A DNA stretch of 64,000 nucleotides from NCBI RefSeq assembly GCF_032884065.1, contig NC_088867.1:31054252-31118251 (forward strand). The letters are read 5' to 3'. Made by a program: the position numbers and the translations under genes. Positions within the stretch are counted from its first letter, which is position 1. Each line of letters starts with the position of its first letter. Shown here in pieces: positions 38,101 to 44,100 of this stretch. This DNA is from Artemia franciscana. Lineage: Eukaryota > Arthropoda > Branchiopoda > Anostraca > Artemiidae. Below the pieces are notes generated by a model, which was given only the letters and a program-made list of their open reading frames with translations, was not told the origin of the DNA and did not search any database.

Positions 38101-41100
38101 TTGAAATAGCGGTGGTTCCAAGGGATATAGTCTATCATGAGACATTGTCTTGTTAATTAAAAAGAATAATTCCTGATTCTTGTGATTGAATTCTGAGGCC
38201 AAAATTACGGTATTTATAAGAAAGGATGAAAAAATTTCAAATACGCTCAGTACCCTGATTGATGTCAAGGATATCATCAGCATTTGAAGCAAAATACATG
38301 TCGATGCCACGGAGAATGCAAGATATGGGACATTTCATGTAAAAAACAACTACTCTTTTTGATTCTGTGTACTGACTGTGTATATACTCTGGGAATTTTT
38401 TAAGTGTTGGGCGGCCAAGCACTTTTCTAACAGACGGGATATTTAGAAACTGAGAAATAATGTGGCTAAAATTTATTGTAATTTACTACAGGCTGATCAG
38501 CGGCCACCCGGACAAAGATATGATATCTGGTAGCCGAAGACGGTAATCCATAATGAGTTTATTGAAATTTGGTCCTTGACCCCCAGACGCCCTTCCCTCC
38601 TCACATATACCTTTTTTGCAGATTAGACAGTTATAATCACTAATTGTTCTATTTTTGAGAGACCACACAAAATCAAAGAGATAACTAAAACCAGGAATTG
38701 GGGATATCTTAGGAATTATTTCTTTATTCGATGTATCCCGGTTTAGTGTCACCCTGCAAATTAATTCGTATTATTTCCCCTTACTCACAATCGTCAGTAG
38801 CTACGCTCTTTTTATAATTGATTAGCCTGATCAAAGACGAATTTTACAATTAAAACTTAAAGAAAGTGGTTCTCTTGTCATAAAGGGTTTACTTTATTCA
38901 TTGTATTTGCTGTTCTTAGCGAGGAAATGGTGGACGTATCTGTCAATGACATCGATTATGTCGGGAATCAATAGACTTTTTAACTTAAAGTAAATTACCG
39001 AAACATCACTAGGGAAAAAATAAATCTAAAGTAAGTATGCACATAGACTTATGGTAGACTATAATTTAAGTACATTTTGCTCAAATAAAATTTTGACTCT
39101 GGGATTTATTTTTATTCCTTGCGGTATTTCGAAGAAGTATTACACTGGGCTAATAAAAAATTCTCCAGACCTTCGTTTGTTTTGTAGGGCTGTTTTGGCC
39201 CGTTTGACCTCTTCCTGGCTTATGTAATGCTAGTTGGTGGGGGCGCTTCGTGCCCCCCCCCGCGCATAAGTCATTACGCGCCATTGTAGTTGTGTCCCTG
39301 TGTCCCACCTGTGAATGTAGATAAAAGAGAAAAGATTTCTCCTTTCGTTATAGATATATATATATGTTTTTAACTACGTAAAACTTGCAAATATACAACA
39401 TTCTTCGATGTCCCATTGTCTGTGCATATAAATAGATTGTCAGGTTTACCGACTCTTGAACATGCAACATAAAATTGTCCATGGGAAAAACAATCCGTAT
39501 TCAGATCTATACCTCATTATTCTAATGATTGCCCTTGAGCTTTGTTGATGGTGATTGCTAATCGAACATTCCCTGCGTCCCCGTCGTCAATTATATATCC
39601 CCCTGTGCCCCCGGCATCCCCGTTGTAGTTGTGTCCCTTTGTCCCGGTCGTCATTTATATTCCCATTATCCCGGTCGTCATTTGTGTCCCAGTGTCCCAG
39701 TCTGTAATTTCTCTTTGAGCGTCCCGGTCGTCATTTATGTTCCCTGTGTCCCGGTCGTCATTTGTGTCCCAGTGTCCCAGTCTGTAATTTCTCTTTGAGT
39801 GTCCCGGTCGTCATTTATATTCCCTGTGTCCCGTCTTTTAGTTTTCTTTTTCTCCTTTATTTTTCAGTTTTTTTCCTTTTTTTAGTTTTTTTTTCTTTTT
39901 CAGTTTTTAGTTTTTTTAGTTTTTTTTATTAGTTTTTTTCTTTTTAGTTTTTTTATTAGTTTTTTTCTTTTTAGTTTTTTTGTAGTTTTTACCTTTTTTT
40001 TAGTTTTTTTTTTCTTTTTTAGTTTTTAGTTTTTTTAGTTTTTTAGCTTTTTTAGTTTTTTAGTATTTTCTTTTTAGCTTTTTTTTGTAGTTTTTACCTT
40101 TTTTAGTTTTTTTTCTTCTTTTGTATTAATGCTAAAGCCAAGGTTCGAACCTGGAACCTCTTGGACCTAGAACCTGGAACATAACGCTTTACCAACTCAG
40201 CTACTTCGGCTTGAATACATTCGTTTTGAGCAGCTTCCTCGGCTGTTGCCATTGTAGGTTCTTCAGTCATTTTACAATTAGAAATTTCTCTTTCAACGAT
40301 CTTCTTACAATTAAAAATTTGTCTTTGAACGATTTTCTTAAATACCTGTGTCATGATCGTCATTTATATTCCCTGTGTCCCGGTCGTCATTTGTGTCCCG
40401 GTATCCCAGTCTGTAATTTCTCTTTGAGTGTCCCGGTCGTCATTTATATTCCCTCTGTCCCGGTCGTCATTTGTGTCCCGGTCTGTAATTTCTCCTTTTT
40501 TCAGTTTTCTTTTTCTTCTTTATTTTTCAGCGTCACTATGAAATACATATCGCCGAACCTTTGTTTTTTTAACTAAAATCTGGTAGGCATTGATGACCTT
40601 ATCCAAGTCAAAATCCCAAACCCAATCATCATCGCTATCATTTTCAGTTTTGATATTTTTTGACTCTCGCTGTCCAGGTGGATTTTCATCTAACTGCGCG
40701 GTTTTGCGTTCTTTAGCCGCAAGCCTGTTTTCTTGCTGTTCTTGTGATTCCTCGGCACGCTTTCTTTTCTTACTTTTCTATCAGCCGCAAGCCTGTAATA
40801 TACGTCAGTTGACAAACATGACGTCAGTCGACACACAAACATGACGTCAGTAGACAGACACATAGACAAACAACTTATTTTTATATATATAGATTTACAG
40901 CATAGATACATTTGACTCAGAAATAATTCCCATTAGATAGCAAGTGCAGCACGTCTATTCTTGTTATCAGGAATACATCACCAAGGGATGTAACCCATGT
41001 AGTGACCAAGATGGGCCCAAGCTTTCCCAAAGCCTCTAAGCCTCTGGTGACTTCTTGCTATCCGACTGTAAATGTTGTAAAGCGCTGTGTGTACACTTGA

Positions 41101-44100
41101 TAAAGAGTTATTAGTCCCTTTCCTGCACTGTTGGGACTCATTGCTTTTGTTTAGGCCATAATAGTTTCAGTGGCTTCAATAATATGGAATGTTGTCGATA
41201 ATATGGATACTTAATAATATGGAATGTGGCATGGAATGGTACGCCGCTGACAGACTAATATCGTACTGAAATTTTGTATGACAAATTCAGATGTTTTAAA
41301 TTTGGCTTCTTAAGAGTTTCAAAAACATCTCCCAGGGCTAAGAAATATGAAGTTAAGTGATATAGAATTTTTTTGTTCAAGCAGAAATGAAGGGTTACAT
41401 AAGCAGGGAGTAAGACTCATAATGAATAAAAAAATTTTTAAGTCTTGGTTAGGTTGGGAAGGTGTGAATAAACAATAGTTGCATAATTTAAAACCAAAAC
41501 GGGCAAGATATCAGCCATTGTGGTAAAGTCCCCCTATAGACCAACTGACCGAGGCAATAGTGACCCAGATGAATTTTGCATCAAGGAGGCACACTCGTGC
41601 CTCTATAAAGAGGCGAACCACGACAATGTTAAGCGATCTTCGGTTCCAGTAGTCGCAGAGGGATGGGGAGGGATGCATTTCGTAGCCCGAGCTCCAACTA
41701 AGGAACCTGCCAAATTTCATCCCCCTCCGACTTTTCCTTCATGGGGAAAATCTGGCCGAAAGTTTCGACCCACCAACCCCAGCCCCCCTTTAACGTTGTC
41801 CGATCGGGCTGAAATTCACAAGTTAAGGTCCCCTAGGGCCCAGGAGCTTATCCGCGAAATTTCAGCTCGATCCGATAACTCCTTCCCTGTTTTCCAGAAA
41901 CCACGCATAGCCACTTAATTTTCATATTCTTTTTTTTCTGCCACGCCTACAGGTCACAGCCGACATCGGATCTGGGTGTACGAAGACTCATTCGATGTGG
42001 AATTCTCCGAGTAAGTTTCCTTGAAAGTTTCGTAGGAAAATCTTAACCCCCCGAAAGTTTCGATCCCCCAACCCCACCCCACCCCCCTTTAACGTTGTCC
42101 GATCGGGCTGAAATTCACAAGTTAAGGTCACCTACGGCCCAGGAGCTTATCCGCGAAATTTCAGCTCGATCCGATAACTCCTTCCCGGTTTCCAGAAACT
42201 ACGCATTAGCCACTTAATTAACCCATTTCTCCATAAGAGCCCATGTTAATTTGAAATTTTTAAAAGTTGTTTAAAAGTTATATTTACACGCATGCAGGTG
42301 GTTAGCTCAGTCGGTAGAGCGTGGGACTCTTAATCCTCGGGTCAAGGGTTCAAGTCCCCTACCGGGCGTTTTTTTTTCACAAAATATGAAAAAAACTTCG
42401 TTTTCTTAAAGAGTTAAAGAGGCTGCGTCCCAAAGTCGAACCTTAAAACGTACAGGAATGTACGAAGGGTGTACGAATTCCTGTACGAGGAGTACAGGAA
42501 TTATTAAATTACATCCACCATGGATTGTAGAAAAATGTACAGAAATAATATGAGAAAAACTTCGTTTTCTTAAAGAGTTAAAGAGGCTGCGTCCCAAAGT
42601 CGAACCTTAAAACGTACAGTAAGTAGGAGAGGCAGTTGGGGGGCTGCCGTCCCCCAAACCCCCCGCTTTTAAAGACTTTTGTACAGGTTTTTTGTTGTGG
42701 GGGGCTACCGCCCCCCTAACCCCCCGCTCTTGGCTTCGGAAACGCCCTCTTTTAATTAACAAAAAATTGAAATGAATGAATAATGGAATAACTTCGAAAA
42801 ATGTTAAACACAAGAGGACAGGAGAACCATTGCGCCGAAACTAGTAATTAGTAACAATGAAGTCCCCCCCACAACAAAATACCTGTACAAAAGAGTCTTT
42901 TTAAGCGGGGGGTTTGGGGGGCGACAGCCCCCCTACTGCCTCTCCTAATTCCTGTACGTTTTAAGGTTCGACTTTGGGACGCAGCCTCTTTAACTCTTTA
43001 AGAAAACGAAGTTTTTTTCATATTATACAGTTATAGGAACAAGTAGGAAAGATCCAAAGTAGAAATATGGTGTTTTTGCTATGGACATTAATGCCCAGGG
43101 TGGAATAAATAGGGGTTTGAGTCCTTGTGGGACACTAGGTTGGAAATTAAATATTAAGAAAACTTAGTTGATTAAGCTAGGTGTAAATGAGGATGAAAAG
43201 GTGATGGATTGGTTCATCCTCTTCGGTAGCATTGTTACCAAAGGTGGTGAATGCAGTGAAGGTATAAAAAGTTGAATTCTAAATGCTGAGGTTCTTTCGC
43301 ATTTGAAAAAAAATTCGAAGAATAGGAAGATCAGTTTTAGAATTAAGATTATAATATTGGAACCCTTGGGAATTACAATGATTAAATATATGGCTCTGAA
43401 ACGTAGGCACTTGGAAAGGCACAGAAAAAAAAAATCCTAGATGTTGTTTAAAGGTAGCTTTGGGTACTTGTTCGTCTAAGCGTGTGTCAAACATTAAGCT
43501 GTGCGGAAAATTTGGTTCGATCTCATTTGCTAGGGTTATGATGAAAGAAAGACTATAATAGATTGATCGCGTTTTCATGAATGAAGGAGAATAGGCTGCC
43601 AAAATCGTATTTTCTGTTCACCAATCTGAGTCCAAACAAAAAGCAGGATATCCTTGATTAGAGTAGGAACAGGTCATAAGAAAATATTTGAAGGAAGTTG
43701 AGTTGAGAGTTATGAGCTATTCTTTAAATTGATTGGGTAGAGGAGCTTACGCAGCTGTGTCTGCCTCTGACAGCTTTGTGCTGCAATGGTAGGAGTATAT
43801 TTTAGTGATTCTAAAGGACTTCGCTTGTTTAACAGCATTTTACATCTGTTAGAAACTGTGTTTGAGGATTCTTTAGTATACACTCGGTTGCGATTTTTCG
43901 TTTTCTTAGATTGATATCGGTAAGCTCAGGAGTCGTAAAGTGTCTCGTAACTGTACTATCATTTTTAGATGGCTTAACTGGCTTCTCTGTAGTTGAATAA
44001 GTCGGTTCTTAATTAGGAGATTCGACTATTTAAAACCACAACGCATTTTCTGAAATTAAACAGGAAGTAGCGAGCATTTGAAGCGTTAAGCTGCTTGTCT

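Follow-up and report, generated by a model that had tools for sequence, protein, structure and literature searches.

An apparently RTE-like long interspersed nuclear element (LINE) of Artemia franciscana is interrupted twice within the stretch studied here (the window: 64,000 nucleotides [nt], positions 31054252-31118251 of contig NC_088867.1, labeled G000:C5 in our coordinates, from an assembly of 1.27 Gb in 6,468 contigs), once by a non-autonomous Helitron and once by a single element that ends in a very long fold-back. A second copy of the same region, diverged by 1.35%, holds only one of the two insertions and serves as an internal control, which demonstrates the order of the insertions and makes the insertion site exact. 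Nesting itself is ordinary, textbook behavior of transposons; the interesting part is the target rule of the fold-back family, which prefers purines at a short distance on one side of its insertion site. An earlier note on this DNA had described the split LINE; the analysis adds a control by an empty site, the sequence of the two insertions, a revised end of the Helitron, and, for a high-copy family, a target preference that can be measured. The use of interruptions to date transposons is an established approach (TinT, PMC3014933; REANNOTATE, PMC2672092; interruption analysis, PMC2517846), and the logic proposed in the earlier note is the same; we applied it to one locus with an empty-site control.

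One interrupted LINE and its empty-site duplicate

The longer LINE copy in the window (12339-15643) was used as the reference, and comparisons were made by blastn against window positions 10000-18000 with two scoring schemes. As proposed in the earlier note, the three LINE parts (39161-39229, 40894-41580, and 43026-43806) form one interrupted element, being collinear with the reference on the same strand. Positions 39147-39226 match 12325-12404 (E = 2e-8), 40900-41562 match 12447-13095 (E = 8e-59), 43026-43113 match 13123-13211 (E = 1e-15), and 43109-43806 match 14879-15638 (E = 6e-44), with identities of the LINE parts to the reference of 61-79%. Overlap between the parts in reference coordinates, which would have spoken for different elements, was looked for; the parts do not overlap there, and the last two matches share 5 window bases. 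The expectation that gaps would fall only at the breakpoints was not borne out, as reference positions 13212-14878 (∼1.67 kb) are also absent from the target LINE, within its third part at ∼43113. Because five further LINE copies (L079-L083) run into this interval, continuing past 13212 to ∼13755-13769, the missing 1.67 kb is a loss in the target.

Smaller differences were resolved by alignment with further sequences, among them the duplicate of the target (L040) and L079-L083. About 32 bp of LINE sequence, a palindromic stretch kept in the reference and the five other copies, is gone 6 bp to the left of the Helitron junction. At the 5′ limit, which is provisional, the match between reference and target extends to 12325/39147, and L080-L083 have other common sequence upstream. 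The misfit near 13085-13115 is an inverted duplication found, among eight aligned sequences, in the reference copy only; it is near perfect (GGAGATACTAGTG..CACTAGTATCTCC), is absent from the target, the duplicate, and the five other copies, and is of the kind that a template switch would be expected to produce. The reference can be called a LINE because it holds remnants of a reverse transcriptase (RVT_1, E = 1.8e-7, above the Pfam cutoff) and, weakly, of an endonuclease (Exo_endo_phos, E = 0.003, below the cutoff). The host element is putatively RTE-like, the clade name RTE2 being the label of the earlier note.

The alternative of three independent insertions from different LINE copies, adjacent by chance, could draw on the low identity to the reference, which differs between the parts, and on a weak side match of the third part (43353-43531 with 12003-12190, E = 1e-7). 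This side match falls just beyond the reference copy, directly upstream of it, and may represent the 3′ end of a further LINE fragment. Order, strand, and coordinates are nonetheless collinear without overlap, and parts two and three are joined seamlessly in the duplicate, with the same joined sequence in the five other copies. This refutes the alternative for these two parts and leaves it next to impossible for the locus as a whole.

The duplicate was found in a genome search with 40894-41570, which gave a single 97% match besides the window; the other 38 scored places reached 67-75% at best. The match lies ∼70 kb upstream on the same contig in direct orientation and belongs to a second copy of the surrounding region. 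The duplicated length is ∼14.3 kb after subtraction of the insert (its left limit lies beyond the sequence fetched), and 191 of 14,169 aligned bases are substituted between the two region copies. The duplicate shares the 1.67-kb internal LINE deletion and the position of the Helitron, whose 5′ end has a longer TA run there. It does not have the fold-back insert: it reads ...GATGAATTTTACATACAGTTATAGGAAC..., compared with ...TTTTGCA[TCAAGG...CATATTA]TACAG... in the window, and the empty site is clean, with neither a footprint nor a target duplication.

The insert is the younger of the two, as the duplicate contains the Helitron alone. The earlier proposal that the LINE came first and the other two elements later thus stands, and the empty site adds the order from Helitron to fold-back insert. 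This order would be unproven if the insert had once been present in the duplicate and had been excised precisely, a course of events for which we found nothing direct. The duplicate site is structured like that of L079-L083, which are uninterrupted at the homologous place and have the same site sequence; the insert-free state is therefore ancestral and excision unlikely. As the site also has no footprint, and as elements whose insertion leaves no duplication are not known to be excised cleanly, we judge precise excision to be very improbable. The second region copy is either a tandem segmental duplication or one of two alleles both kept in the assembly, and the insertion order is the same either way.

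Taken as a whole, the following history seems to us highly probable. The LINE is the oldest component. An old RTE-like LINE lost ∼1.67 kb and took up a minus-strand non-autonomous Helitron, in either order. The region was then copied, and after the split, a single 1,445-bp non-autonomous element entered one copy at A^T without duplicating its target. The order of the two inserts, their boundaries, and the arrival of the second as a unit are shown by the empty site and by the 36 related loci. The divergence of the insert speaks on the other side: it differs from the consensus of 30 family copies (29 of the 36 other loci described below plus the window; range, 1.15-2.98%) by 1.6% (14 differences), which exceeds half of the 1.35% between the region copies and gives no independent support for its youth. 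This value fits a source copy that differed beforehand. The breaks in the LINE coincide exactly with the limits of the Helitron as it stands (39230/40893), as stated earlier; the insert begins at 41581, not at 41578. All features are listed in Table 1.

Table 1. Features of the interrupted LINE, its two insertions, and the duplicated region (window coordinates)
Feature	Position	Strand	Basis or remark
Stretch present twice, second copy without the insert	28986..44725	+	Second copy at G000:C5:31013619-31028012
LINE 5′ part	39161..39229	+	Collinear with reference from 12325/12339; aligned with five copies; match starts at 39147
Non-autonomous Helitron, 5′ TC at 40893, present 3′ CTAG at 39230	39230..40893	−	Relatives, duplicate
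LINE middle part (5′ region and start of endonuclease region)	40894..41580	+	40900-41562 matched, rest by alignment
Fold-back insert, one element of 1,445 bp at A^T, no target duplication	41581..43025	.	Empty site in L040, family ends, five uninterrupted LINE copies
Left terminus TCAAGGAGGCACACTCGTGCCTC..., hairpin with 7-bp stem 5 nt from the end	41581..41613	+	Folding, family alignment
First direct repeat unit	41756..41920	+	92% identical to 42051-42219
Second direct repeat unit	42051..42219	+	Match to first unit
tRNA-like stretch	42300..42363	+	Rfam RF00005, 42.7 bits, model positions 5-66 of 71
Additional copy of the tip of the fold-back arm	42383..42459	+	Inverted relative to 42948-43024, 100%
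Terminal fold-back	42545..43025	+	Arms 42545-42704 and 42865-43026 (93%), 160-nt loop
LINE 3′ part, with internal deletion at ∼43113	43026..43806	+	blastn match
Target purine block ATAGG, +8 to +12	43033..43037	+	Also present in the empty duplicate

A composite insert that arrived as one unit

To describe the family of the insert, we searched the genome with its left part and with its fold-back (best 40 of 1,987 and best 40 of 1,132 candidates, respectively, window included). Among the best 40 scored places per search, the other family places are 91-98% identical. The family sample consisted of 36 other loci and the window's own (37 in all), and a module was scored as present when it was found anywhere in the locus at ≥60% coverage. 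Seven modules were distinguished (left end, repeat 1, middle, repeat 2, tRNA zone, arm, and right end), each present in 34 to 36 of the 36 other loci: 35 to 36 for each of the first five and 34 for the last two. The fold-back loop was present in 28. All seven modules occur together in 33 of the 36 loci, and in 27 the loop is there too. Both ends are readable in 31 of the 37 loci, of which 27 begin exactly with TCAAGGAGGC and 28 end exactly with TTTCATATTA; the end signatures of the family are TCAAGGAGGCACACTCG... on the left and ...TTTTTTTCATATTA on the right.

Because the modules co-occur across related loci, mostly with shared ends, the insert arrived as one unit. Its composite nature is a property of the family, and at this locus the arrival was a single step; assembly of the modules may date back to a family ancestor. 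The earlier view of the insert as itself layered, and of the locus as a three-level nest, is not upheld, since the LINE holds two insertions side by side and thus two levels. A true nest, built in place by a repeat element, a tRNA-type element, and a fold-back element in turn, would account for the visibly different modules, and it could also appeal to the loop being absent or reduced in 8 of the 36 loci. Two of these (L014 and L015) are without most of the fold-back, which counts against arrival as a unit; L007 is without much of the repeats, and several loci have inverted or rearranged fold-back segments. Against 33 of 36 other loci with all seven modules together, mostly between the same outer ends, building in place is hardly credible.

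The terminal fold-back folds as one hairpin reaching the right end of the element (−187 kcal/mol; z = −30), with arms of ∼160 nt. At the opposite end, the first 33 bp of the family show 2 differences in 957 positions among 29 other copies, compared with 1.6-2.6% in the other zones. Inverted repeats of 9 bp (TAAAGAGGC; 41606-41614 and 42984-42992) lie 25 and 33 nt from the ends. The tRNA-like stretch looks tRNA-Lys-like by eye and was the only match above its family's gathering score in an Rfam search of the insert with E values up to 1. Special conservation of this stretch was sought within the family and was not found, its 2.6% differences being no fewer than in the rest. The Helitron, too, has a tRNA-like stretch (40130-40210, minus strand; RF00005), as does the insert on the plus strand (42300-42363). 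Exact-pattern scans for pieces of the repeat units in the viral_contigs and genome_contigs collections gave 0 matches.

One-sided target preference and possible modes of movement

The junction at the empty site lies between A and T (A^T). In the family, T is at +1 in 68 of 70 flanks, and among 31 flanks position −1 is A in 22 and T in 2. The flanks were gathered in four samples: 31 of the 37 loci, then 20, then 10, and then 20 of 23 new matches, one ambiguous match being omitted, which gave 81 flanks (in the second and third samples, L010 and L018 completed the set of left-part search matches). The final count was 66 after omission of L036, which has a rearranged end, the near-identical L063, L074, and L116, and flanks that were the element itself (nine from the fourth sample, L062, and L066). 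In the pooled 66 flanks, 259 of 330 bases at +8 to +12 to the right of the junction are purines, compared with 1,204 of 2,310 farther out. This interval was noted after the first sample (123/150 versus 552/1,050 at +16 to +50) and showed the excess again, by purine count, in the next three: 65/95 versus 333/665 (P = 9e-4; these figures still contain L062, L066, and L074), 38/45 versus 158/315 (P = 1e-5), and 41/55 versus 215/385 (P = 0.009). The P values are optimistic because the tests treat bases as independent. Cytosine is correspondingly depleted at +8 to +12 in the pooled flanks (10/330 versus 411/2,310).

The preference is one-sided, as the mirrored place in the left flank shows neither a purine nor a pyrimidine excess (81/155 versus 552/1,085). 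The element itself has a T7 tract at −14 to −8, mirror symmetric to the purine block about the junction, and the junction is therefore centered in an imperfect palindrome. A motif sampler run on the flanks found no single motif; the information in the right flank exceeded that in the far control, with scattered offsets, and at width 6 the left flank scored above the right (3.88 versus 3.32). As the sampler did not converge, we relied on the fixed-position counts. For a control, we used the family of Helitron L086 (described below), from which 20 3′ regions were collected and 16 were readable; all 16 are followed by T, and 12 of the flanks begin with TATATATATA. These 16 flanks, from one Helitron family, show no purine excess at +8 to +12 (47/80 versus 293/560; P = 0.34). 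A purine-block target rule was not found in the literature covered, which takes in few subscription papers, so that this is no proof of absence.

The insert was compared with known systems. It resembles canonical Helitrons of the Helraiser/Helibat type (PMC4778049) in its 5′ TC, in A^T insertion, and in the lack of a duplication but differs from them in having no CTRR end and in its purine-block preference. Helraiser insertions have AT-rich flanks, most markedly on the 3′ side (PMC4778049), a pattern compatible with an influence from one side, though not with a purine block. HINEs are reported to insert at T-rich or TT sites and to have subterminal repeats of ∼11-15 bp (PMC4067079; PMC7492417). 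HINEs and Helentrons (DINE-1 type, PMC4067079; oyster Cg_HINE, PMC7492417) and the insert are all non-autonomous, make no target duplication, and have a hairpin near one end, internal repeats, and short subterminal inverted repeats; the insert differs in using A^T instead of TT, in the 9-bp length of its subterminal repeats, and in the additional fold-back with 160-bp arms. The family thus falls outside the definitions of both canonical Helitrons and HINEs. Foldback (FB) elements and miniature inverted-repeat transposable elements (MITEs) have long terminal inverted repeats at both ends and duplicate their target. Long inverted repeats are shared by the insert, but its fold-back is at the right end only, and the empty site shows no duplication.

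The ends of the family are precise in most copies, the single empty site examined shows no duplication, the junction is A^T, the purine preference is one-sided, and the element moves as a unit. On balance, we lean toward a rolling-circle type enzyme supplied in trans as its means of movement. Such a Helitron/Helentron-like enzyme would join the element ends to a nicked A^T site, with the target chosen partly by the right-side purine block at +8 to +12, and this kind of joining would explain the precise ends, the lack of a duplication, and the hairpin at one end. Several points weigh against this account. No enzyme partner for the insert emerged among the one autonomous Helitron (L086) and the two tyrosine-recombinase copies compared. 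The right end is CATATTA, not CTRR (the family end TTTCATATTA is exact in 28 of 31 loci), and the reverse reading of the end is CTTGA. The 9-bp subterminal repeats were reached by 39 of 3,000 shuffles. The target rule is weak per base and variable in spacing: the motif AWAGG, picked after the first two samples, was absent in the third (0/9), and the depletion of C was not significant in the fourth (4/55 versus 66/385; P = 0.07).

If the canonical Helitrons of the genome moved the family, the 5′ TC, the A^T junction, the lack of a duplication, and the hairpin near one end would all be expected, and RepHel-type genes are in ample supply (150 of 150 scored candidates match PF14214). One of the 16 Helitron flanks (L093) even has ATAAAGG slightly farther out. 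The missing CTRR end tells against these Helitrons, as do the absence of any sequence shared between L086 and the insert at E values up to 1 and the lack of a purine excess in the L086 family, and we regard their involvement as doubtful. A recombinase acting on circles, such as a tyrosine recombinase that crosses over between A and T and reads one arm in the target, would produce no duplication and a one-sided target motif, with the T7 tract and the purine block mirrored about the crossover. A PF00589 search of the genome did list nine places (including G000:C1:15236977-15237468) with a tyrosine-recombinase element whose frames are 340 aa long. However, two of its copies (L137 and L138) share no ends with the insert and were rejected as its partner, and the left flank of the target has no corresponding excess of purines or pyrimidines in mirror position, which makes this route improbable, more so than movement by canonical Helitrons. 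It is also unlikely, but conceivable, that the family belongs to a group of non-autonomous elements moved by an undescribed variant of duplication-free transposition. Such a variant would read its target one-sidedly (A^T plus the purine block), as the mirror of the T7 tract, so that every insertion would create an imperfect palindrome about the junction, and the giant terminal hairpin would take part in recognition. Should an enzyme with such a preference be found, duplication-free elements would gain a directly testable target recognition step.

In L137, the part conserved with L138 stops near position 2990 with a 93-bp inverted repeat. Better-scoring PF00589 matches lie on the small contigs C1123, C1680, and C2296 and may be bacterial contamination.

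The Helitron end and neighboring observations

On the minus strand, the Helitron begins with TC after A (TGTAAA followed by TCTATATATA). It is flanked by A on its 5′ side and, in both copies of the locus, by C instead of T on its 3′ side. The 3′ end of its family lies 37 bp farther out and is intact in the duplicate, where a hairpin and AGCTAG form the end, as in most relatives (7 of 9 loci in one set and 16 of 20 in another). The window copy is without these final 37 bp, from CTAG to CTAG and including the terminal hairpin, and ends at the inner CTAG; judging from the sequence, they were probably lost through the repeated CTAG. A CTAG end in a single Helitron copy therefore need not be the true end of its family. 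Compared with canonical Helitrons (PMC4778049), the window element is alike in its 5′ TC, CTAG 3′ end, family hairpin, preceding A, and a relative with a Rep domain, but differs in the loss of the last 37 bp with the hairpin and in the C that follows.

Two further loci bear on this 3′ end. L052 has several hairpin-CTAG units in series, and the window copy has one fewer, which suggests that the number of units varies by gain and loss through the repeated CTAG. In L055, a right-truncated copy of the fold-back family abuts the inner CTAG of a Helitron, the last hairpin unit being replaced by fold-back sequence.

A genome search with PF14214 (Helitron_like_N) gave at least 150 hits, with matches in 150 of the 150 scored candidates (the best 150 of 7,436) and frames of up to 2,091 aa. 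One of them, L086, has the domain in a 1,663-aa frame; the scan covered the Rep-type domain. L086 and the window Helitron are similar at both ends (5′, 75%; 3′, 69%) and over 192 bp of the interior (90%), and L086 is putatively an autonomous relative, predicted to encode a RepHel-type protein. The 150 listed PF14214 hits score nearly alike (197-205 bits); going by these scores, this may reflect a recent Helitron burst.

Elsewhere in the window, the minus strand of 58511-63439 encodes parts of an HSP70-like protein, which are spread over several frames and separated by gaps. By eye, this is probably an intron-containing HSC70 gene.

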